Positions 9,767 through 61,743 of a stretch of DNA of 64,000 nt are shown here, piece by piece. The stretch lies in assembly GCF_003058265.1 (NCBI RefSeq), contig NZ_QBUK01000001.1, positions 186,001-250,000 on the forward strand. The letters run 5' to 3'. The position numbers and the translations under genes were made by a program. Each line of letters starts with the position of its first letter. Within the stretch, counting starts at the first letter, position 1. A model generated the notes under the pieces. The model had not been told where the DNA came from, did not search any database, and worked only from the letters and a program-made list of their open reading frames with translations. Origin of the DNA: Flagellimonas amoyensis (GTDB lineage: Bacteria; Bacteroidota; Bacteroidia; Flavobacteriales; Flavobacteriaceae).

Positions 9767-9830
9767 TTGCTTTCGCGAAGCATGGACTGAAACCTTGACG
9801 GTCGTTAAATGTTCAGGGCAAGTTAATCTT
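9767..9830 (+). promoter_or_regulatory. Leader element copy 1, possible pseudoknot RNA
   Basis: First of four near-identical 63-64-base elements, ending 15 bases before the peptide start. Stem A: TGCTT/AAGCA around TCGCG. Stem 1: GACTG (9785-9789) with CGGTC (9799-9803), including one G-U pair. Stem 2: CCTTGA (9793-9798) with TCAGGG (9813-9818), including one G-U pair. Stems 1 and 2 interleave as an H-type pseudoknot with linkers of 3, 0 and 9 bases. Confidence 0.7.
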
Positions 9831-9845
9831 ATTGTTCTTATTAAT

Positions 9846-10085
9846 ATGAAGAATTTGAAATTATTTACGGAGACTCTTAAGTCCAATGCTGTGCTCACTT
9901 CCAATCAGCAAAAAGAAATCAAGGGAGGATATTACACCAATTATGAGGATTGTGCAGTTGATTGCCAAAATGGAGGAGGAGGTACTGATCTTCCTCCTGG
10001 ACCTCATTACGGCAATCAACCACTTCCTGCTTCAGGTGGTTGTTGGGAAGAAAGGCCTGGTTATTGGAGCTGTAGGGATAGCTAG
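9846..10085 (+). CDS. Double-glycine leader peptide 1, four core cysteines
   Basis: A 79-residue precursor. The leader (residues 1-28) has a hydrophobic pattern followed by SNQQKEIKGG, the type cut by C39 peptidases after the double glycine (Gly27-Gly28). The predicted mature part of 51 residues is glycine- and proline-rich with Cys36, Cys40, Cys66 and Cys76, consistent with two disulfides. ATG 9846 is chosen because it places the start 15 bases after the leader element, as in the other cassettes; an upstream extension of the frame would read through that element. Possible role: secreted bacteriocin or signalling peptide. This is inference from the leader and from the nearby exporter. Confidence 0.8.
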   Translation: MKNLKLFTETLKSNAVLTSNQQKEIKGGYYTNYEDCAVDCQNGGGGTDLPPGPHYGNQPLPASGGCWEERPGYWSCRDS

Positions 10086-10099
10086 TCTTTTTATTTGAT

Positions 10100-10130
10100 A
10101 ATAGCGGGTCTTTCAATAGGTCCCGCTATT
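10100..10130 (+). terminator. Hairpin after peptide gene 1
   Basis: AATAGCGGG (10100-10108) pairs with CCCGCTATT (10122-10130) around a 13-base loop. Only a short T stretch follows, so termination may be partial, allowing some readthrough into the nucleotidyltransferase gene. Confidence 0.6.
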
Positions 10131-10174
10131 TAAATTACTTAAGGTAACAAATCAAACTATGTTCAGTATTTTCT

Positions 10175-11488
10175 ATGGTTTTACAGCTAAAAGATACAAT
10201 AGGAGAAATTTTAGGAAGAACGATAGATGAAGCAATAGAAACCAAAACTATTTTTTTGGTAGGAAGTAGCACGCAATCAAATTTGAAGTCTTTTAAGGGT
10301 AAGCAGTCGGATGTCGACATACTAATTTTGAACAACTCATTGACTGGTCAAATAAGCAATGTCGATAATGGTCTGAGATATGATATTTCAATAATAAAGG
10401 ATGATATTATTGGTTTGTTGATCTCAGCTTTTCATGGAAATAAAACTGCGGGCAAGGTGTTTTCTTCTATGAATGCTTTCCAGATTATTGATGACAATGA
10501 TGGGAAAGGAGATGTATTTGCTTCTAATGTTAATAAACTATATAAAATATTCACTAATTCAAGCTTGCCCAATTTTATTGCGAACAGTATTTTTTTACAT
10601 AACATTAAAGTTAATTTGGATGACATTGCTGGGGAAAATGATATAGATTCACATTTCGCTCATCAGCGGTTTTCCAATCATTTATTGGATTATGTAGCTT
10701 CCCTAGTTTATCCTTTCCGAATAGAAGGTAAGTATAGGGGCAAAATTTTCAGACAAAACATCGAAGGATTTGACAGATTTTTGGAAGAAATAAAAGGGTC
10801 TTCACATGGTCATTTTTTGGCAACAAAATTCTTCAACCGTTTTGTGCCTATATTGGAATGTGAGTACTATGGTCTTGAATATTCTCTGGAACTTAAGAAA
10901 GAGATTGTTTCAGGTAATATTAAAAGCTTTTATTTTGGTTATGATAGCATAGTTTCTGAAAAAACAATATTGTTTTTGCCCGGAGAGGAATGGTCAAAGT
11001 ATTCTAATAAAAGAACATTTAAGCATACTGGTATTAGCAACATCGTTCCATGTCTATCTATAGAACAACATGATTTTTATATTCAAATCCTCACTACTGT
11101 ATCCAAACTTTTCTTTCCAAGTAAACTAAACGAAAGAAAAAATGCCCTCATCTTTATTTTCAAGCTATTTCACGGCAGTGGTTTAGGGGAGGGTATTAAT
11201 GGCACAATTCGAGCCGGTGTAGTCCTTAAGTCTGTAATTTCATTGTCTCAAACTAATCTAGAAGTAGATTCAATAAAGTTTAAGGATTGGTTGGATAATA
11301 CTGCAGTTTCATTTTCCAAAAATAAACCAAATAATACTATTGATGCTTCAATGGAAGAGTCGATACAAACCCTGACAAATTTTATTGATGGGTTTGAATC
11401 GCATAGGGAAAAGGAAATTATAGCAAGTTATAGCTTTTTTGGAATAATGAAAGCACTAAGAATTAGAATAGAAGATTTAGAATTCTAA
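10175..11488 (+). CDS. Nucleotidyltransferase-fold protein of unknown role
   Basis: A 437-residue soluble protein. Near the N terminus is the DNA polymerase beta-type nucleotidyltransferase signature: Gly30-Ser31, then SDVDILIL with Asp46 and Asp48. Asp70 in LRYDISII is a candidate third metal ligand. This fold transfers NMP groups to diverse acceptors, and also occurs in toxins, antitoxins and antibiotic-modifying enzymes. The remaining roughly 350 residues match nothing I recognise. The gene is strongly AT-rich and lies between peptide gene 1 and the VKOR fusion, in the same direction. Peptide modification, immunity and an unrelated cargo gene are all possible, and I cannot choose between them. 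Confidence 0.6.
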   Translation: MVLQLKDTIGEILGRTIDEAIETKTIFLVGSSTQSNLKSFKGKQSDVDILILNNSLTGQISNVDNGLRYDISIIKDDIIGLLISAFHGNKTAGKVFSSMNAFQIIDDNDGKGDVFASNVNKLYKIFTNSSLPNFIANSIFLHNIKVNLDDIAGENDIDSHFAHQRFSNHLLDYVASLVYPFRIEGKYRGKIFRQNIEGFDRFLEEIKGSSHGHFLATKFFNRFVPILECEYYGLEYSLELKKEIVSGNIKSFYFGYDSIVSEKTILFLPGEEWSKYSNKRTFKHTGISNIVPCLSIEQHDFYIQILTTVSKLFFPSKLNERKNALIFIFKLFHGSGLGEGINGTIRAGVVLKSVISLSQTNLEVDSIKFKDWLDNTAVSFSKNKPNNTIDASMEESIQTLTNFIDGFESHREKEIIASYSFFGIMKALRIRIEDLEF

Positions 11489-11627
11489 TCGATTCTACTT
11501 GTATAATGCGCTTGCATACTTAATTGTAAGATAACACCTATTAAAAAATTTATGTAAACACATATTTTTTGAAAGATTATTCTTATATTACCGTATCTCC
11601 CCCTAATTTTAAAACATATAGGCTTCA

Positions 11628-13208
11628 ATGGACAATTGTACATCCGTTACCAAGAATTTATTGGATAAACTTCAATTAGATTACACGACTCGATATCTAG
11701 AAGAAAATATTCTTTCGCACCCGGAACACCCCAGTTTGTTGGCGGTTTCGGATACTTTGGCAAAGTATCGTATAGAAAATCTTCCTGTCAAAGTGGATGG
11801 CCCAAAACTTAAGGAACTTCCACTACCTTGCATTGTACAGCTGTCTGACCATGGTGGTATGTTTCATGTTTTGACACATCATTCCACGTACGAATCCATT
11901 TTTTTGAATGATAAAGGGAAAAAAGTGGTCATTCCCAACAAGGAATTTTTGTCTAAATGGACTGGAGTTTGTCTTTTGGCCGAAACAACAGGGGATTCTG
12001 GAGAACCTGGTATCACAGAGAAGTTGGACGAAAGAAAAGCAAAGACCATTTTTAATGGAGTTGGAGTGTTGTTTATGTTGATTTGGGCAGTTTTCAGCTT
12101 TTTTAATTCCCAACGTACACCAGAAGTGAATCCATTTTTGGTCGGGGCATATACATTACTTAAATTATTGGGACTTGCCATGGGAACAATGTTGCTCTGG
12201 TATGAAGTGGACAAATACAATCCCACACTTCAAAGTTTCTGTTCTGGAGGAAAGAAGATAAATTGTGATTCAGTCCTGAATTCCAAATATGCAAAAATAC
12301 GCAATGCAAATTTGAGCCTTGGTCTAATCGGTTTTTCCTATTTCTTTGGCACCCTGGCCTTATTATTCGTTAGTGGTTTTCAGATTGCATCTTTGGCACC
12401 TTTGGCTTATCTGAGTTTTGCCGTCCTTCCAATGGTGGTTCTCTCCGCGTATTATCAAGGTGTGGTCATCAAGCAGTGGTGTAGGTTCTGTATCGTTGTG
12501 CAAGCGGTATTGCTTTTGGAGGCTTCAATCGTTTTCTTGGGTGGATTTCATTTAATCGGGTTGGAACCTACATCTATGCTCTTATTGATGGTTTTGCTCA
12601 CTATGCCCATCCCCATATGGAACTGGCTCAAACCATTGCTCGAAAAAGAAAAAGAGGCCAATCTGTATAAACGGGGACTCCAGAAGATAAAGAACAATCC
12701 AGATGTATTCTTGGGATTGTTGCAAAAAAGCCGAAAAATAAAGACCAGTATTGAAGGGTTGGGGATTACCTTAAAAAATGATGCTGCAAGATACGATGTA
12801 GTCAAAGTATGTAACCCCTATTGCGGACCTTGCGCGAATGTACACCCTCTGCTGGATGATTTGTTGCGGGAAGGCAAGATCAACTTACAGGTCCTTTTTA
12901 CGGCTTCCATTGATGAAGCCGATAGAAGGAACAAGCCTGTAAAACATTTCTTGGCCTTGAATGAAATGGATAAAGAACTGGCCCACAAAGCTATGGATAG
13001 CTGGTACCTGGCCAAGGACAAGAATTACGAGCAATTTGCCAAAGCGTATAAAATGAACGGAGAACTCCAACAGCAAGACCATAAAGTATCGGCCATGAAC
13101 GAATGGTGCATAGCAGAAAAAATAACACATACCCCTACCATCTTCATCAATGGATACGAGTTGCCCAAGGAATACAGTGTTGAAGACATTAAAGGAATTC
13201 TTGGTTGA
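11628..13208 (+). CDS. C39-like / VKOR / thioredoxin fusion membrane protein
   Basis: A 526-residue three-part protein. Residues 1-120 resemble the C39 domain of the neighbouring exporter: both contain LPLPCIV and then a segment of the type EFLS(K/R)W. On alignment the catalytic His and Asp are replaced, and only Cys4 may remain, so it is probably non-proteolytic and leader-binding. Residues 138-335 form a six-helix VKOR domain with loop cysteines Cys205/Cys213 and the CRFC active site (Cys285/Cys288). Residues 385-526 are a thioredoxin-like domain with CGPC (Cys399/Cys402) and a cis-proline-type THTPTIF. VKOR fusions form disulfide bonds outside the cytoplasm. Beside genes for cysteine-rich leader peptides, the likely job is oxidising those peptides. 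Confidence 0.88.
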   Translation: MDNCTSVTKNLLDKLQLDYTTRYLEENILSHPEHPSLLAVSDTLAKYRIENLPVKVDGPKLKELPLPCIVQLSDHGGMFHVLTHHSTYESIFLNDKGKKVVIPNKEFLSKWTGVCLLAETTGDSGEPGITEKLDERKAKTIFNGVGVLFMLIWAVFSFFNSQRTPEVNPFLVGAYTLLKLLGLAMGTMLLWYEVDKYNPTLQSFCSGGKKINCDSVLNSKYAKIRNANLSLGLIGFSYFFGTLALLFVSGFQIASLAPLAYLSFAVLPMVVLSAYYQGVVIKQWCRFCIVVQAVLLLEASIVFLGGFHLIGLEPTSMLLLMVLLTMPIPIWNWLKPLLEKEKEANLYKRGLQKIKNNPDVFLGLLQKSRKIKTSIEGLGITLKNDAARYDVVKVCNPYCGPCANVHPLLDDLLREGKINLQVLFTASIDEADRRNKPVKHFLALNEMDKELAHKAMDSWYLAKDKNYEQFAKAYKMNGELQQQDHKVSAMNEWCIAEKITHTPTIFINGYELPKEYSVEDIKGILG

Positions 13209-13212
13209 AAAA

Positions 13213-13237
13213 GGCCCAAGAAATTGCTTCTTGGGCC
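13213..13237 (+). terminator. Hairpin after VKOR fusion gene
   Basis: GGCCCAAGAA (13213-13222), loop ATTGC, TTCTTGGGCC (13228-13237): a perfect ten-base-pair stem just after the stop codon. No T run follows on the plus strand, so it may be a weak terminator or a transcript-end stabiliser. Confidence 0.45.
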
Positions 13238-13247
13238 ATGAACAAAA

Positions 13248-13310
13248 TTGCTTTCGCGGAGCATGGACCAAAACCTTGATGGTCCCTAAATGTTCAAGGC
13301 AAAGTTAATT
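13248..13310 (+). promoter_or_regulatory. Leader element copy 2, possible pseudoknot RNA
   Basis: Same element, ending 15 bases before peptide gene 2. Stem 1 is GACCA (13266-13270) with TGGTC (13280-13284), an A-U pair where copies 1, 3 and 4 have G-C. Stem 2 is CCTTGA (13274-13279) with TCAAGG (13294-13299), fully Watson-Crick. Linker lengths match copy 1. It follows the VKOR hairpin directly. Confidence 0.7.
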
Positions 13311-13325
13311 TTAATTTGTGTTTTT

Positions 13326-13535
13326 ATGAAAAAAACAAGTTTGACATTGCTGAATTTGGATGCTAGTGATTTGCTTCAAAGAGAGCAACTCAAGACAGTC
13401 TTGGGTGGTGCCGGTGGCAAATATACCTGTGAGGAAATCTGGGCTATTCCGTTATGTTGTCACCCAAATTGGACCTCGGTTTGCGGATTTACTCCACCAG
13501 GAGCCATGTGCAACAACGGGGTTTGCATTATGTAG
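13326..13535 (+). CDS. Double-glycine leader peptide 2, six core cysteines
   Basis: A 69-residue precursor whose leader ends REQLKTVLGG (Gly27-Gly28). The mature part of 41 residues holds six cysteines: Cys35, Cys44-Cys45, Cys53, Cys62 and Cys67, spaced C-x8-CC-x7-C-x8-C-x4-C. Peptide 4 has the same order with different loop lengths, suggesting a shared disulfide fold. ATG 13326 is preferred to an earlier in-frame start that would lie inside the leader element. The gene is a single-gene cassette with a leader element in front and a strong hairpin behind. It is probably a substrate of the C39 exporter. Confidence 0.82.
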   Translation: MKKTSLTLLNLDASDLLQREQLKTVLGGAGGKYTCEEIWAIPLCCHPNWTSVCGFTPPGAMCNNGVCIM

Positions 13536-13540
13536 AAATA

Positions 13541-13575
13541 AAATAACCCAAGGAGCTATGCTCCTTGGGTTATTT
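13541..13575 (+). terminator. Strong hairpin terminator after peptide gene 2
   Basis: A sixteen-base-pair perfect stem (13541-13556 with 13560-13575) with a three-base loop. The A/T-rich stem base supplies the short T run. Confidence 0.8.
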
Positions 13576-13626
13576 ATAGTTGGACAATTAACCTTTATTG
13601 GCAACAATAAGAGGAAGATGAAAAAA

Positions 13627-13690
13627 TTGCTTTCGCGAAGCATGGACCGAAACCTTGACGGTCTCTAAACGTTCAGGGGCAAAGTTAATT
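13627..13690 (+). promoter_or_regulatory. Leader element copy 3, possible pseudoknot RNA
   Basis: Same element, ending 17 bases before peptide gene 3. Stem 1 is GACCG (13645-13649) with CGGTC (13659-13663), fully Watson-Crick. Stem 2 is CCTTGA (13653-13658) with TCAGGG (13673-13678), one G-U pair. The nine-base linker TCTAAACGT is A/U-rich like the others. Confidence 0.7.
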
Positions 13691-13707
13691 CTAATGATTT
13701 TTTTACT

Positions 13708-13887
13708 ATGAGAAAATTGAGTTTTGAATCGGATCAACTTCTTGGCAGGGAACAATTGAAGACGGTGAAAGGTGGTGCCCACATACCATGTGACGAACAC
13801 TATGATTGTCCTGCCGGACAAGGTTGCTGTTTTGATGTGGGATTATGTTTTATTGATTCTTACATCGAAGAACGTTGTAATAATTAG
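13708..13887 (+). CDS. Double-glycine leader peptide 3, six core cysteines
   Basis: A 59-residue gene short enough to be missed by length filters. The start MRKLSF is 17 bases after leader element copy 3 and the frame ends at TAG 13885-13887. The leader ends REQLKTVKGG (Gly22-Gly23), nearly identical to peptide 2. The mature part of 36 residues has Cys28, Cys34, Cys40-Cys41, Cys47 and Cys57 (C-x5-C-x5-CC-x5-C-x9-C). This is the cysteine order of inhibitor cystine-knot peptides, although the CC-to-C5 loop is a little longer than usual. Two tandem features, the same leader element and a terminator, support it as a real gene. Confidence 0.82.
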   Translation: MRKLSFESDQLLGREQLKTVKGGAHIPCDEHYDCPAGQGCCFDVGLCFIDSYIEERCNN

Positions 13888-13896
13888 GAATTTTAG

Positions 13897-13928
13897 ATAA
13901 AGGGCTGATTGCGACATCAACCCTTTAT
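13897..13928 (+). terminator. Hairpin after peptide gene 3
   Basis: ATAAAGGG (13897-13904) pairs with CCCTTTAT (13921-13928), extended inside by TGAT/ATCA, followed by a T-rich stretch. Confidence 0.65.
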
Positions 13929-14066
13929 TCTTTGGTTTATAGTTCTAAATATCACTGGTCATTTTTTTGAACAGAAATATATTGGTCAAAGAATGCTTAG
14001 TTGAGGATTCTAATGCAGTACTTGAATGAAGAAGTCCAAGTAAGAGACTCAGGACCATAAATGATA

Positions 14067-14130
14067 CTGCTTTCGCGGAGGATGGGCTGAATCCTTGACG
14101 GTCTTTAAATGTTCAAGGTAAAGATTAATT
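14067..14130 (+). promoter_or_regulatory. Leader element copy 4, possible pseudoknot RNA
   Basis: The most diverged copy, ending 19 bases before peptide gene 4. Stem 1 is GGCTG (14085-14089) with CGGTC (14099-14103), kept by two G-U pairs despite two substitutions. Stem 2 is CCTTGA (14093-14098) with TCAAGG (14113-14118). The 5' hairpin has one mismatch here. Linkers are again 3, 0 and 9 bases. Confidence 0.65.
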
Positions 14131-14149: not shown

Positions 14150-14359
14150 ATGAATAAACTAAATTTAAACATTGGGATGATTTTAAGTCGGGGTCAACAG
14201 AAATCAATTTATGGAGGAGGGCCGTATGATGAACCGTGTAATCAATATTGGCATACTTGCTGTACTTCAAATGATGAATGTATGGACCCTACGACTGAAG
14301 CTCCTGATGATGGTTCATATTCTGTTTGTGAGGGGAACTATTGTGTATCATATAATTAA
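14150..14359 (+). CDS. Double-glycine leader peptide 4, six core cysteines
   Basis: A 69-residue precursor with leader ending RGQQKSIYGG (Gly22-Gly23, then a third glycine). The acidic mature part of about 46 residues has Cys30, Cys37-Cys38, Cys44, Cys60 and Cys65 (C-x6-CC-x5-C-x15-C-x4-C), the same order as peptide 2. It lies immediately before the exporter gene but is separated from it by a terminator hairpin. The leader is more diverged than those of peptides 2 and 3, matching its more diverged upstream element, so the cassettes have probably diverged as units. Confidence 0.82.
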   Translation: MNKLNLNIGMILSRGQQKSIYGGGPYDEPCNQYWHTCCTSNDECMDPTTEAPDDGSYSVCEGNYCVSYN

Positions 14360-14451: not shown

Positions 14452-16668
14452 GTGTCTTATAATTTAAAAAGTGAAAAGTCTTTTCCATTCTATAAACAGC
14501 CGGATGCAAAAGACTGTGGCCCTACTTGTCTGCGCATTATTGCCAAACATTATGGCAAGCTGATTTCATTGCAGGAGATCAGGGAAATCTCTGAGACCAC
14601 AAGGGAGGGAAGTAACTTGCTCAAGCTCAGTGATGCCGCTGAGGCCGTTGGGTTCAAATCCATTGGTGTAAAGATTGACTATGACCAGTTAACGGAAGTT
14701 CCGTTACCCTGTATCGTACACTGGAACAAGAACCATTTTGTAGTGGTCTATGCCATTAAAAGGGATATCATCTATATTTCAGATCCCTCCTATGGACTTA
14801 TCACCTACACCAAAGAAGAGTTTCTGTCCCGTTGGATCGGCAACAATGCCACAGAACAGACCAAAGAGGGCATTGCCCTGCTGTTGGAGGTCACCCCAAA
14901 GTTCCATAAACTGCATTGGGAGAGTACGGACAAAAAATCGTTGCGTTTCCTGTTCCAATATCTGTTCAAGTACAAGAGTCTGTTGGCCCAATTGTGTATT
15001 GGACTTTTTGTTGGGAGCCTGTTACAGCTCATCTTCCCCTTCCTGACACAGAGCATTGTGGATGTCGGGATCCAGAACCGGGACGTCAATTTTATCTATG
15101 TGGTACTGGCCGCACAGGTGATGCTCTTTTTGGGCAGGACCAGTGTTGAGGTTTTCCGTAGTTGGATCCTGCTGCACCTTAGTACCCGTATCAACATATC
15201 CCTTGTCTCCGATTTCTTTATCAAGTTGATGGCGCTGCCCATCGCCTATTTTGACACCCGCATGACAGGGGACATCATGCAACGCATCAATGACCATAAC
15301 CGGATAGAGAGCCTTTTGACGGGCTCTACACTGAGTACGTTGTTCTCCATGTTCAACTTAGTGGTCTTCGGGGCGGTGTTGATCTATTACAGTCCTTCCA
15401 TCTTTGGAATATTTGCCGTTGGCAGTATACTGTACATTCTTTGGATCACCTACTTCCTGAAAAGACGAAAGGAACTGGACTATAAGCGGTTTTCCCAATT
15501 GAGCCAGGAACAGAGCACGGTCATAGAGCTTGTCAACGGCATGCAGGAAATAAAGATGCACAATGCGGAAAGACAAAAGCGCTGGAAATGGGAGTTTGTA
15601 CAGGCCCGCTTGTTCAAGGTTTCCATCCAAAGCTTGAAATTGGAACAGACCCAGGGTGTGGGCTCCTCGGTCATCAACGAACTCAAGAACATCATCATCA
15701 CTTTTACCTCAGCAGTTTTGGTCATTGAAGGGAACATCACCTTGGGGATGATGCTCTCCATCCAGTACATCATTGGACAGCTCAACTCCCCTATCGGACA
15801 AATGGTTGGGTTTATCCGTTCCTATCAAGATGCGAAGATTAGTATGGAACGCTTGGCCGAGATCCACGAAAAGAAAGACGAGGAGGACAGGGAAAAACAA
15901 TTGATCAAAACGATCAAGCCCAACCAGGACATCAAACTGAAAAAAGTATCCTTCCGTTATCTGGGCAGTGATGAAAATGTAATCGAGGATCTGAACATGA
16001 CCATTCCGGCCAACAAAGTGACGGCGATAGTGGGGGCCAGTGGTAGTGGCAAGACCACCTTGATGAAACTGTTGCTGAAGTTTTATGTGCCCAACAAAGG
16101 GAATATCCGGTACGGGGAACACTATCTGGAAAGTGTCTCGCATAAGGCATGGCGGGACCATTGCGGGACAGTGATGCAAGAAGGATATGTTTTCAATGAC
16201 ACCATCGCCTATAATATTGCCGTGGGCGAGGATACCATCAATCAGGAACGCTTGATCAGAGCCACAAAAATTGCCAACATCCATGATTTTATCCAATCTC
16301 TCCCCTTGGGCTTCAACACCAAGATAGGGAACGAAGGTGTCGGTATAAGTACAGGGCAGAAGCAACGACTTTTTATAGCCCGTGCGGTTTACAAAGACCC
16401 ACAACTATTGTGCTTTGATGAGGCGACCTCTGCGTTGGATGCCAAAAATGAACGGGTCATCATGGAAAATCTGGATAACTTTTTCAAAAACAGGACGGTC
16501 ATCATCATTGCCCACAGGTTGAGTACAGTGAAACATGCAGACCAGATTGTGGTAATGGAAGAGGGAAGGATAAAGGAGTCAGGGACGCATCAAGAGCTGT
16601 TACAACTCAATGGGGCATACTATAATTTGGTAAGCAATCAATTGGAGCTTGAAAGACTGAACAATTAA
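14452..16668 (+). CDS. C39 peptidase-containing ABC exporter (PCAT)
   Basis: A 738-residue protein that both cuts double-glycine leaders and pumps the mature peptide across the inner membrane. Residues 1-130 are the C39 peptidase: Gln16, Cys22 in DAKDCGPTC, His95 in NHFVVV and Asp111 in SDPSYG. Six transmembrane helices follow at about 160-440. The ATPase domain has Walker A GASGSGKTT (about 527-535), an unusual signature STGQKQR in place of SGGQ, Walker B LLCFDEATSALD (about 652-663) and the H-loop in IIAHRLST. The start is GTG 14452, since no ATG fits and the peptidase motif begins soon after. The HlyD-like partner follows after three bases. Confidence 0.95.
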   Translation: MSYNLKSEKSFPFYKQPDAKDCGPTCLRIIAKHYGKLISLQEIREISETTREGSNLLKLSDAAEAVGFKSIGVKIDYDQLTEVPLPCIVHWNKNHFVVVYAIKRDIIYISDPSYGLITYTKEEFLSRWIGNNATEQTKEGIALLLEVTPKFHKLHWESTDKKSLRFLFQYLFKYKSLLAQLCIGLFVGSLLQLIFPFLTQSIVDVGIQNRDVNFIYVVLAAQVMLFLGRTSVEVFRSWILLHLSTRINISLVSDFFIKLMALPIAYFDTRMTGDIMQRINDHNRIESLLTGSTLSTLFSMFNLVVFGAVLIYYSPSIFGIFAVGSILYILWITYFLKRRKELDYKRFSQLSQEQSTVIELVNGMQEIKMHNAERQKRWKWEFVQARLFKVSIQSLKLEQTQGVGSSVINELKNIIITFTSAVLVIEGNITLGMMLSIQYIIGQLNSPIGQMVGFIRSYQDAKISMERLAEIHEKKDEEDREKQLIKTIKPNQDIKLKKVSFRYLGSDENVIEDLNMTIPANKVTAIVGASGSGKTTLMKLLLKFYVPNKGNIRYGEHYLESVSHKAWRDHCGTVMQEGYVFNDTIAYNIAVGEDTINQERLIRATKIANIHDFIQSLPLGFNTKIGNEGVGISTGQKQRLFIARAVYKDPQLLCFDEATSALDAKNERVIMENLDNFFKNRTVIIIAHRLSTVKHADQIVVMEEGRIKESGTHQELLQLNGAYYNLVSNQLELERLNN

Positions 16669-16671
16669 GAT

Positions 16672-17970
16672 ATGCCGGAGAATAAGGATATAGAAAAATT
16701 GGAGTTGAGGTCGGAGGAAGTACAGGAAATCCTAGCCAATCCTCCCTCATGGTTAGTGCGTTGGGGCATTACATTGATTTTTGTGTTAACTGTGATTGTC
16801 CTAATGTTATCCTTCCTGATCAAATACCCTGATTTTGTGACCGCTAAGGTCATTGTGACCACGGAAAGGCCAATGGAGCAGATTGTGTCCCGTTATTCAG
16901 GTGCCTTGGAGGAAATCTACATTGCGAATGGGGACACTGTGACATCGGGCCAGCGTTTGGCTGTTTTTCGGAATACGGCCAATGTGGAGGATGTGTACAG
17001 ACTAAAGAGCATTTTGGACACAGCACAGAAAAGTTCCTCAGAGCTTTTGTTCCCTGTGGAATCCGTTTCGCAATTTGTACTGGGGGACATAGAAACAGCC
17101 TATATCAATTTTGAGAAAAGTTATGTGGAATACCAATTATTGAAAGACCTGGACCCATACACCACCCAGCTTTTGGGCAATCGCCGATCCTTGGAAGAAA
17201 TCAAACTAAGGCTCACAAGCCAGATGGCGCAAAAAAGGGTGTTGGAACAGGAATATGAACTGGAAAAGAGGGATTATGAACGTAATGGACGCCTATATGA
17301 AAAAGGCGTCATTTCCCAACAGGAATTTGAATCCAAAACGCAGGAGTTTCTTCAAATGGAAAAAAATCTCAGTGCCATGGCCATTTCCATTTCCCAGTTG
17401 CGGGAGGCCATTGCGTCCGCCGACCAGACACTTAAGACAACAAGGATCACTAAGCAAGAGGATGATATACGCCTGTTGGCAAATCTGTCACAATCGTTCA
17501 ACGCATTGAACAGGGCACTTAGAGAATGGGAGCATAATTATGTGCTGTCCTCATCGATAGAAGGAGTGGTGGGTTTCCAAGAATTTTGGGGTGAGAACCA
17601 GTATATTGGTTCAGGTGAAGTGGTCTTTTCCATCCTTCCGACAGACACGGAAAAGTTGGTGGGAAAACTAGTCCTTCCCTCTCAGAATGCAGGCAAAGTG
17701 GTCCAAGGTCAGAAAGTGTTGGTGAAACTGGACAATTTTCCATACCAACAATATGGCATGTTAGTGGGCAAAGTGGAAAACATATCGGTATCCCCTAACT
17801 CGGAGGGAAATTATTTCATCTATATTTCACTTCCCCAAGGAACAAAAACGTCCTATAACAGAAAATTGCCTTTTGAACAGGAGCTATTGGGCAATGCGGA
17901 GATCATTACCGAAAATCTTAGTGTGTCTGAAAGGATATTTTTTAAGTTTAAAGATTTATTTAAGTATTAA
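16672..17970 (+). CDS. HlyD family secretion adaptor
   Basis: A 432-residue membrane-fusion protein linking an inner-membrane exporter to an outer-membrane channel. It has a short cytoplasmic N terminus, one transmembrane helix (about residues 27-50), a first lipoyl half near SGALEEIYIANGDTV, a coiled-coil hairpin at about 100-270, and a second half followed by a beta-barrel domain near GKLVLPSQNAGKVVQGQKV. Bacteroidetes bacteriocin exporters commonly pair such a protein with a C39 ABC exporter. It starts three bases after the exporter stop, so the two are certainly co-transcribed. No TolC-type channel gene is present in the window. Confidence 0.93.
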   Translation: MPENKDIEKLELRSEEVQEILANPPSWLVRWGITLIFVLTVIVLMLSFLIKYPDFVTAKVIVTTERPMEQIVSRYSGALEEIYIANGDTVTSGQRLAVFRNTANVEDVYRLKSILDTAQKSSSELLFPVESVSQFVLGDIETAYINFEKSYVEYQLLKDLDPYTTQLLGNRRSLEEIKLRLTSQMAQKRVLEQEYELEKRDYERNGRLYEKGVISQQEFESKTQEFLQMEKNLSAMAISISQLREAIASADQTLKTTRITKQEDDIRLLANLSQSFNALNRALREWEHNYVLSSSIEGVVGFQEFWGENQYIGSGEVVFSILPTDTEKLVGKLVLPSQNAGKVVQGQKVLVKLDNFPYQQYGMLVGKVENISVSPNSEGNYFIYISLPQGTKTSYNRKLPFEQELLGNAEIITENLSVSERIFFKFKDLFKY

Positions 17971-60591: not shown

Positions 60592-61743
60592 ATGGAGAAA
60601 TTGCCCAAAAAATTGCAGTCCAAACTTTCGGCACGTAAGGAAAATGGTTCCTTGCGCCATTTGCCATGGCAGGGCAACTCCATTGATTTTTCATCCAACG
60701 ATTATCTGGGCCTGGCCAAGAGTGAAAAAATTGCCCAAATGGCCCTTGATTTTTTGAAAAAGGCACCCCAAAAAAACGGTTCCTCGGGGTCCCGGTTGCT
60801 CTCGGGCAACCATCAACTTTATGCACGATTGGAAGATTTTTTGGCCGGCCATCATAACTCCATGGCCGCTTTGGTGTTCAACTCGGGCTATGATGCCAAC
60901 ATTGGTTTTTTTTCATCTGTTCCACAACGGGGCGATATGGTCTTGTATGATGAATTGGTCCATGCCAGTATCCGGGACGGAATCCAGATGGGGAATGCCA
61001 AAAGCTACAAATTTGCCCATAATGATATTGATGATTTGGCCCGTCATGTTGAGCGCAGTCGAAATATGGACGGCTTGGCGGAAATCTATATTGTGACCGA
61101 ATCCATTTTTTCCATGGACGGAGATTCCCTAGATCTAAAGCGTCTGGCGAATTTTTGCAGGGACAACGGCTGTTTTTTGGTGGTGGATGAGGCGCATGCC
61201 ACCGGAATTTATGGAAATGGTCGGGATTTGGTTGCGGAACAGGGACTGGAACAGGAAGTGTTTGCCCGCATCATCACTTTTGGGAAGGCGATGGGCTGCC
61301 ATGGCGCGGCCATTCTTGGAAGCGAATCCTTGAAGGAATATCTGGTGAATTTTTCGAGGAGCTTTATTTATACGACTGCACTTCCACCACATACCGTGGC
61401 CACCATTTTGGCGGCGTATCAATATCTTGGGGATGAAGGCGCAGCTATTTCCAAGCAGCTCCAGGCCAACATTGGGCATTTCAAGCAGGAAATGGAACGA
61501 TTGCAAATGACGGACAGGTTCATCAATAGCGATTCGGCCATACAATGCGCCCTGGTTCCCGGGAATGGCAAGGTAAAGGCCATTGCCAAACAATTGCAGA
61601 CAGCAGGATTTGATGTAAAACCCATTCTTTCCCCTACGGTGAAGGAAGGGGAGGAACGCCTGAGATTTTGCTTGCACGCATTCAATACAAAAGAAGAAAT
61701 AACGAAAGTTTTGACATTGTTGAACAATCTCATCAACCCATGA
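60592..61743 (+). CDS. bioF: 8-amino-7-oxononanoate synthase
   Basis: A 383-residue PLP enzyme that condenses alanine with a pimeloyl thioester in biotin synthesis. The PLP lysine is Lys232 in ITFGKAMGCHGAAIL; the GSRLLSGNH and VVDEAHATGIYG motifs are also present. A palindromic-repeat half-site lies in frame at about residues 151-160 (RHVERSRN), between DIDDLA and MDGLAEIYIVTE, in a surface helix region. The reading frame is intact. It is the first gene of an overlapping bioF-DUF2007-bioD run (ATGA overlaps). Confidence 0.95.
   Translation: MEKLPKKLQSKLSARKENGSLRHLPWQGNSIDFSSNDYLGLAKSEKIAQMALDFLKKAPQKNGSSGSRLLSGNHQLYARLEDFLAGHHNSMAALVFNSGYDANIGFFSSVPQRGDMVLYDELVHASIRDGIQMGNAKSYKFAHNDIDDLARHVERSRNMDGLAEIYIVTESIFSMDGDSLDLKRLANFCRDNGCFLVVDEAHATGIYGNGRDLVAEQGLEQEVFARIITFGKAMGCHGAAILGSESLKEYLVNFSRSFIYTTALPPHTVATILAAYQYLGDEGAAISKQLQANIGHFKQEMERLQMTDRFINSDSAIQCALVPGNGKVKAIAKQLQTAGFDVKPILSPTVKEGEERLRFCLHAFNTKEEITKVLTLLNNLINP
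61043..61068. repeat. REP-like half-palindrome inside bioF
   Basis: TTGAGCGCAGTCGAAA at 61049-61064 matches one arm of the palindrome at 22063-22076 in inverse orientation. It is translated as part of RHVERSRN without breaking the frame. Confidence 0.8.

Follow-up and report, generated by a model that had tools for sequence, protein, structure and literature searches.

A predicted mRNA pseudoknot ahead of double-glycine peptide genes in Flavobacteriaceae: a candidate translation-initiation element

Small pseudoknots in the leaders of messenger RNAs (mRNAs) are known from the SAM-II and preQ1 riboswitches, and the Flavo-1 RNA motif, a structured element widespread in Flavobacteriaceae, forms an Rfam family. 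Here we describe an element that occurs four times in a 64,000-nucleotide stretch of Flagellimonas amoyensis (RefSeq assembly GCF_003058265.1, contig NZ_QBUK01000001.1, positions 186,001 to 250,000; the window), each time ahead of an open reading frame (ORF) for a small peptide with a double-glycine (GG) leader. Like SAM-II and preQ1 it would be a small mRNA-leader pseudoknot, and like Flavo-1 it is widespread in this family; unlike them it matches no Rfam family, and the genes that it precedes are not those of the two riboswitches.

Other analogies concern function and genetic setting. In a study on Escherichia coli (PMC7708055), a pseudoknot in the tisB leader is proposed to be required for binding of the 30S ribosomal subunit and protein S1, and compensatory mutants lend support to its stem 2. 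There, likewise, a leader pseudoknot would serve the translation of a small peptide; however, the tisB standby region lies 100 nucleotides (nt) upstream of a sequestered ribosome-binding site, whereas the present element, from another phylum, mostly stands 26-29 nt from the start codon across an A/U-rich gap, and the two are likened by description, not by sequence. The bacteroidetocin clusters, as presented in the text seen (PMC6671954), likewise comprise a GG-leader peptide with cysteines, a C39 ABC exporter and an adjoining thiol oxidoreductase. They belong to Bacteroidales and have leaders of 15-16 residues, whereas here the VKOR, C39-like and thioredoxin-like parts make up one protein; leader RNA goes unmentioned in that text, and the clusters were not searched for one. 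Among the 64 structured 5' regions of a Flavobacterium psychrophilum transcriptome, the conserved ones include those of pheA, hisG, ftsY, acsA, alaS and rimP (PMC9723704). For Bacteroidetes and flavobacteria, no title or abstract opening among the papers found on RNA motifs, pseudoknots in leaders, elements of translation, and bacteriocins or double-glycine peptides describes the element, with subscription papers and preprints outside the scope; in the text of a paper on 50 bacterial genomes neither "bacteroid" nor "bacteriocin" occurs (PMC11109978). Rfam 15 gave no match at the gathering cut-off for the window or for 20 loci with relatives, and with the threshold relaxed to E<=5 the window region returned only CyaR (E 1.1, minus strand, below cut-off). 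The element is best read, from its sequence, as a new family of cis-acting mRNA pseudoknots.

The four window copies share one architecture (Table 1): a 5' hairpin (P0), two bases, and a 34-nt core in which a 5-bp stem 1 (S1) and a 6-bp stem 2 (S2) interleave with linkers of 3, 0 and 9 bases, the first and last being called L1 and L3. The initial annotation had proposed an H-type pseudoknot with compensating changes from these four copies, and its particulars hold. S1 reads GACTG/CGGTC, GACCA/TGGTC, GACCG/CGGTC and GGCTG/CGGTC, all of which pair, some pairs being G-U wobbles, and copy 2 does carry the exchange of G-C for A-U in the pair that closes S1. CCTTGA of S2 faces TCAGGG in copies 1 and 3 and TCAAGG in copies 2 and 4 and is pairable throughout. 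The hairpin TGCTT/AAGCA is intact in copies 1-3, with GAGCA on its 3' side in copy 2, and has one mismatch in copy 4. L1 is AAA and L3 is GTTAAATGT in copy 1; L1 is AAT in copy 4. Three nucleotides across 6 bp and nine across 5 bp suffice to cross the grooves of such a fold. The linker lengths are constant in the window's genus, and some distant copies deviate by about a base.

Support for the fold extends well past the four copies. When five copies from two further genomes of the genus are aligned with the four of the window, pairing holds in 98.6% of 144 cells across these nine copies, compared to 87.1% on shuffling; every S1 and S2 cell pairs, both sides have changed in 7 of 16 pairs, and the covariation score is 0.465 against a shuffled mean of 0.213 and a slid maximum of 0.135. 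Of the five measures applied to this alignment, one showed no rise over shuffles: further pair types numbered 13 vs 13.1 shuffled, a figure reached by 322 of 500 shuffles. The counted columns of one of the same-genus genomes carry strongly different letters, P0 being CATTT/AAATG, S1 GTCAC/GTGAC and S2 CCTTGG with CCAGGG or CCAAGG, and all of them pair. An exact pattern scan that put no constraint on two of the S1 pairs and two of the S2 positions, with the outer S2 partners untouched, allowed pairing to be judged independently of the pattern: the S2 pair (10,31) was paired in all 53 distinct copies and through all six pair types, as compared to 27.3 on average and 39 at most in 2000 swaps; its neighbor in S2 was paired in 48 of 53 (41.6 on swapping), and the two free S1 pairs in 53 and 52 of 53 (45.6 and 42.4 on swapping).

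Homologues with lost pairing, which the initial annotation had named as the observation to look for against the fold, were sought among 75 copies of less than 80% identity drawn from 224 distinct cores, a few out-of-register rows remaining in that alignment. S1 pairs in 95.6-97.3% of cells and S2 in 90.6%; P0, paired in 66.8%, is the weakest part of the structure and covaries more weakly here than in the nine-copy alignment. Both sides have changed in 149 cells versus 46 in shuffles, the number of pairs changed on both sides was reached by 15 of 500 shuffles, and the covariation score of 0.393 compares to 0.185 shuffled and a slid maximum of 0.156; all these covariation statistics ignore kinship, and copies within one genome or genus are related. 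Pairing is also kept between copies of a single genome (G129) whose letters have changed, as in GACAC/GTGTC and GGCAT/ATGCC for S1 and CTGTGA/TCACAG and TCGTGA/TCACGG for S2. Since interleaved base pairs are retained while their letters change, we predict an H-type RNA pseudoknot with two covarying stems, and both stems are presumably present at once in one molecule.

The element is tied to a particular class of genes. Of 255 distinct copies, 14 with an anchor score below 9 were dropped, leaving 241; the anchor was chosen on loop letters, for this set as well as for the gap, strand and upstream counts given below. A GG-peptide ORF (at least 30 residues, with GG at residues 15-45) lies downstream on the same strand in 217 of the 241. 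This sets the element apart from Flavo-1, which the F. psychrophilum study describes as found indistinctly in sense or antisense (PMC9723704). The other 24 copies, by reading, comprise 11 with GS, GA, AG or similar in place of GG, 2 cut by the end of the record and 11 without such an ORF. With the ATG that puts GG nearest residue 23 chosen wherever several fitted, S2 and the ATG are separated by 26-29 nt in 162 of 217 copies and by 24-32 nt in 197, across a gap whose sequence is A/U-rich and poorly conserved. Alignment of 199 copies on the ATG (gap 22-33 nt) reveals adenines at -3 (86%), -12 (89%), -11 (76%) and -13 (66%). Features reported for initiation in Flavobacterium johnsoniae are A at -3, -6, -12 and -13 and little structure from -20 to +20 (PMC6847099, PMC9976891). 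Given the gap and this zone of low structure, the predicted pseudoknot would end barely beyond the stretch expected to be open.

An ATG also occurs within L3 in 164 of 241 copies. As its frame relative to the peptide is evenly distributed (52, 48 and 52 of 152), it was rejected as the peptide start or as a fixed upstream ORF, and a motif of the loop is the likelier reading than a start codon. In copy 2 the L3 ATG at 13290-13292 is in frame with peptide 2, and a start there would give 81 residues. A weaker match, recorded at L120:39-101 and L309 (model R1, E 0.0011; model R2, E 3.8e-7), lies ahead of an ORF of about 500 residues read as C39/VKOR-type.

Most copies follow closely upon another gene. 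Upstream genes were taken as mechanical ORFs (at least 100 residues, or GG peptides): one is found on the same strand within 600 nt in 206 of 241 copies, and the start of the element overlaps its stop or lies no more than 30 nt from it in 64 copies and no more than 60 nt in 125. The C termini of the 70 nearest cases, by reading, are mostly those of exporters, adaptors, C39/VKOR-type proteins or other GG peptides. In view of these nearby stops and the lack of an enriched promoter box (see below), the element is most simply regarded as part of a polycistronic transcript, transcripts presumably running through from the upstream genes. Of 237 copies, 68 have a hairpin of 6 bp or more whose end lies no farther than 25 nt ahead of P0, three shuffles giving 1, 4 and 3, and the examples read lack a T tract. 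G+C-rich hairpins stand between upstream stop and P0 in the window (13213-13237), in L040, L041, L045 and L087 and elsewhere. Only on the minus strand do the window hairpins at 13213-13237 and 13541-13575 receive a terminator score, and a terminator scan found no excess (4 vs 3.8 in shuffles).

How widespread is the element? Model R1, a covariance model holding P0 and S1 only and trained on one genus, so that its matches were mostly selected without S2, matched 44 of 397 Flavobacteriaceae genomes at E<=1e-6 and 183 at E<=0.1, many of the latter to be expected by chance. The stretches fetched held 149 matches in 94 sources. The exact pattern, scanned across 84,980 species, returned 97 stretches, of which 17 (L235-L251) were not used; the remaining 80 gave 133 R1 matches, and 77 of these stretches belong to Flavobacteriaceae by name or by genus, some genera being ones that we take to be members of that family. 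The exceptions are a Bacteroidia bacterium (L179), a Flavobacteriales bacterium (L196) and Roseivirga of the Cytophagales (L201). In a scan of the class, R1 matched 12 of 395 genomes at E<=0.001, nine of them from other families; by eye only one of the nine, G727, looks real. Its copy precedes a GG peptide at a distance of 27 nt, has an 8-nt L3 and shows a single disrupted pair in S2. In a scan of the order, R2 matched 11 of 296 genomes at E<=1e-4, ten in Flavobacteriaceae and one (G912) outside. Thus, in the samples searched, the element is rare outside the family. A locus of G912 (L300) and locus L127 have ORF starts after the element that resemble Sec or lipoprotein signals instead of GG leaders.

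Copies can be numerous within a genome; the counts are lower bounds, as 12-17 candidates were scored per genome. Two genomes of genus g132 hold at least 17 (G1033) and at least 15 (G389, inferred to be Tenacibaculum), several within a few kilobases, and G129 at least 12; four were found in F. amoyensis. The copies looked at in G389 precede different peptides; one copy was looked at in G1033. A reading in which only 3 of the 42 genomes matched by BLAST at E<=1 (among 71 of the genus) are real was abandoned as too narrow, the model finding diverged copies in further genomes. Carriage by phages was also considered and rejected, no viral contig matching the exact pattern.

Apart from the structure, nothing in the element and its surroundings is as constrained as its distance to the AUG and the start context, and for this reason we favor, at roughly an even chance, a role of the element in initiating translation of the peptide cistrons. 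The tisB leader pseudoknot is the closest working analogue known to us, and the G727 copy, which retains the GG peptide and a 27-nt gap in another family, likewise favors this reading. At the level of sequence, the paired stems, the strand, the narrow gap, the start context and the link to GG peptides are apparent from the copies themselves; the partner would presumably be the ribosome, in the form of its 30S subunit and perhaps through bS1. One may picture a polycistronic mRNA carrying the element between cistrons, where the pseudoknot would block pairing with upstream RNA, hold the A/U-rich gap single-stranded and present an edge near -27 on which the 30S subunit could dock, just upstream of the ribosome footprint. 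Initiation might then be guided by the Kozak-like adenines, because Bacteroidota generally initiate translation without Shine-Dalgarno pairing, and translation of the small exported peptide would be raised in relation to that of the operon's exporter genes. Being compact (a 34-nt core), recurrent, portable and set at a narrow distance from the AUG, the structure makes testable the question of how some Bacteroidota mRNAs might initiate more strongly than others. Small peptide genes overlooked by protein models may also be marked by it.

Several observations weigh against a role in initiation or against the fold on which it depends. A-6, another determinant reported in F. johnsoniae, is not enriched (27% of the 199 copies). 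The ATG in L3 would be an unwanted start for an enhancer, though one without frame preference; the conserved loop letters exceed the needs of a plain enhancer and could mark a site for a ligand or protein; and common descent of paralogues could account for the narrow gap. In at least two cases, L300 and L127, relatives of the element precede ORFs of 114 and 175 residues with signal-peptide-like N termini. The outermost S2 pair draws no support from swapping (42 of 53 paired vs 42.0), and covariation alone cannot separate coexisting from alternating stems. Finally, a search starting from the C39/VKOR/thioredoxin protein located relatives at 24 places in 18 of 71 genomes of the genus, 3 of the places being already known to carry the element. 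Among 12 of the other 21 that were fetched, eight have it (9 matches, E<=5.7e-12; protein identity 28-40% at seven of these loci), which speaks in favor of the proposed role, and four, one of them a 4.9-kb contig, gave no match, which indicates that the system can do without it. The presence of a GG-peptide ORF without a model match in L291 and L297 likewise implies that the element is not obligatory.

Could the conserved letters act as DNA, or as RNA of another shape? The initial annotation had kept a promoter or operator in reserve while correctly noting that no plus-strand TAnnTTTG box precedes any window copy; its RNA part stands, and the reserved part now appears unlikely on the combined grounds of wobble bias, upstream stop codons and absence of forward box enrichment. 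Neither a DNA dyad nor an antisense RNA would favor G-U on the sense strand. Yet in the 141 of 192 distinct cores retained by an in-register filter that makes no distinction between G-U and A-C, there are 40 G-U and 1 A-C in S1 and 66 G-U and 17 A-C in S2, or 106 vs 18 for both stems (159 vs 68 in all 192 cores unfiltered), an excess which indicates that the peptide-sense strand is the one read. The pairing kept despite letter changes within G129 speaks to the same effect. Neither TAnnTTTG nor TTG-N16-21-TAnnTTY is enriched or peaks in position within 200 nt upstream of 237 copies, and clear conservation is absent from every column between -75 and -25 (relative entropy no higher than 0.11 bits); a forward promoter was rejected on these two counts, and the sense-strand TAnnTTTG box at a set place that marks a flavobacterial sigma-A promoter was not found. 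What a DNA element could claim in its favor is an antisense box, CAAAnnTA, position-locked right after S2 in 64 of 235 copies (0.27 in shuffles, 10.9 from independent columns). As an antisense promoter this too was rejected, for a -33-like partner was found in none of the 64. Directly 3' of S2 in window copies 2 and 3, the minus-strand TAnnTTTG box (here TAACTTTG) occupies 13300-13307 and 13680-13687. A LytTR-type operator was dismissed by reading: GTT repeats of copy 3 fit the consensus with the wrong spacing, and no match is seen in copies 1 and 2. All in all, a promoter or an operator with dyad symmetry seems a very improbable reading of the element. Only slightly less improbable is that S1 and S2 are mutually exclusive hairpins forming a switch and not a pseudoknot. 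Interleaved complementarity would covary in either case, and nested folds of the four window copies give other structures (-14.0 to -18.1 kcal/mol), the pseudoknot not appearing in folds of single copies, as expected of a program that cannot form pseudoknots; but alternation does not require the conserved linker lengths of 3, 0 and 9 or the conserved linker letters.

If the pseudoknot does form in mRNA, it might still act otherwise than by promoting initiation. A regulated switch, in which a ligand or an RNA-binding protein stabilizes the pseudoknot and toggles all the exported peptides together, is a possibility that we consider distinctly weaker, though worth retaining. Loop letters are conserved beyond pairing, AAA in L1 and TTTAAATGT in L3, with two L3 adenines at 100%, figures that are biased upwards because the anchor was chosen on loop letters and copies are partly anchored on these adenines; moreover, the many copies per genome in G129 and in the two g132 genomes look like a regulon. 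Set against this, no expression platform is visible, S2 mostly lying 26-29 nt from the AUG across an A/U-rich gap in organisms that do not generally use Shine-Dalgarno pairing; no Rfam family matches, and no ligand or protein candidate was sought further. In the same tentative vein, one pseudoknot class might define a family-wide regulon of exported peptides, with a single trans factor (a ligand, the 30S platform or an exporter-bound protein) deciding when the C39-exported arsenal is made, possibly next to the exporter. We regard as rather unlikely, less so than alternating hairpins and more so than a switch, an intercistronic processing or stability element, whereby cleavage upstream would leave the pseudoknot as a 5' cap stabilizing the peptide part of the mRNA. 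The position of copies just past upstream stop codons and the excess of hairpins before P0, without T tract in the examples read, would suit such an element, but stability alone leaves the narrow AUG gap and the start context unexplained, the very features from which a role in translation initiation is argued.

Table 1. Positions of element copies and associated genes, counted from the first nucleotide of the window
Feature	Position	Strand	Details
Copy 1 hairpin P0	9768..9782	+	TGCTT-TCGCG-AAGCA
Copy 1 pseudoknot (predicted)	9785..9818	+	S1 9785-9789/9799-9803; S2 9793-9798/9813-9818
Peptide 1	9846..10085	+	79 aa, leader end ...QQKEIKGG
C39-like + VKOR + thioredoxin-like single protein	11628..13208	+	526 aa
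Copy 2 hairpin P0	13249..13263	+	TGCTT-TCGCG-GAGCA
Copy 2 pseudoknot (predicted)	13266..13299	+	S1 13266-13270/13280-13284; S2 13274-13279/13294-13299
Peptide 2	13326..13535	+	69 aa, leader end ...LKTVLGG, Cys-rich core
Copy 3 hairpin P0	13628..13642	+	TGCTT-TCGCG-AAGCA
Copy 3 pseudoknot (predicted)	13645..13678	+	S1 13645-13649/13659-13663; S2 13653-13658/13673-13678
Peptide 3	13708..13887	+	59 aa, leader end ...LKTVKGG; NF047792/NF047798 below cut-off
Copy 4 hairpin P0	14068..14082	+	TGCTT-TCGCG-GAGGA, single mismatch
Copy 4 pseudoknot (predicted)	14085..14118	+	S1 14085-14089/14099-14103; S2 14093-14098/14113-14118
Peptide 4	14150..14359	+	69 aa, leader end ...QKSIYGG
C39-peptidase ABC exporter	14452..16668	+	738 aa; Pfam Peptidase_C39 2e-34, ABC_membrane 8.4e-33, ABC_tran 2e-27
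HlyD-family periplasmic adaptor	16672..17970	+	432 aa; Pfam HlyD_3 2.4e-12

In the window the cluster spans 9.8-18.0 kb and comprises four double-glycine-leader ORFs (59-79 amino acids, aa), the 526-aa protein, the exporter and the adaptor, so that a C39 exporter shares the cluster with the GG peptides. The start codons at 9846, 13326, 13708 and 14150 follow the respective pseudoknots after 27, 26, 29 and 31 nt, and copy 2 begins 40 nt past the stop codon of the 526-aa protein. The latter matches the Pfam families VKOR (8.4e-17) and Peptidase_C39 (1.8e-8), and Thioredoxin_4 at 1e-4, slightly under its cut-off. All four peptides remain below the family cut-offs of Pfam and NCBIfam: peptide 1 approaches TIGR04149 (E 0.032) and PF14406 (E 0.0072), and peptide 4 has no match in either collection. 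A search of the genome with TIGR04149 recovered two of the four peptides and no others, and is thus too weak to exclude further ones; a simple ORF filter applied to the whole window returned the same four GG-leader peptides and, at 61479, an ORF unlike them. The interval from peptide 1 to the VKOR protein holds a 437-aa ORF (10175-11488, plus strand), without an NCBIfam match and with a Pfam match to NTase-conflict below cut-off (E 0.083), which perhaps encodes a nucleotidyltransferase.

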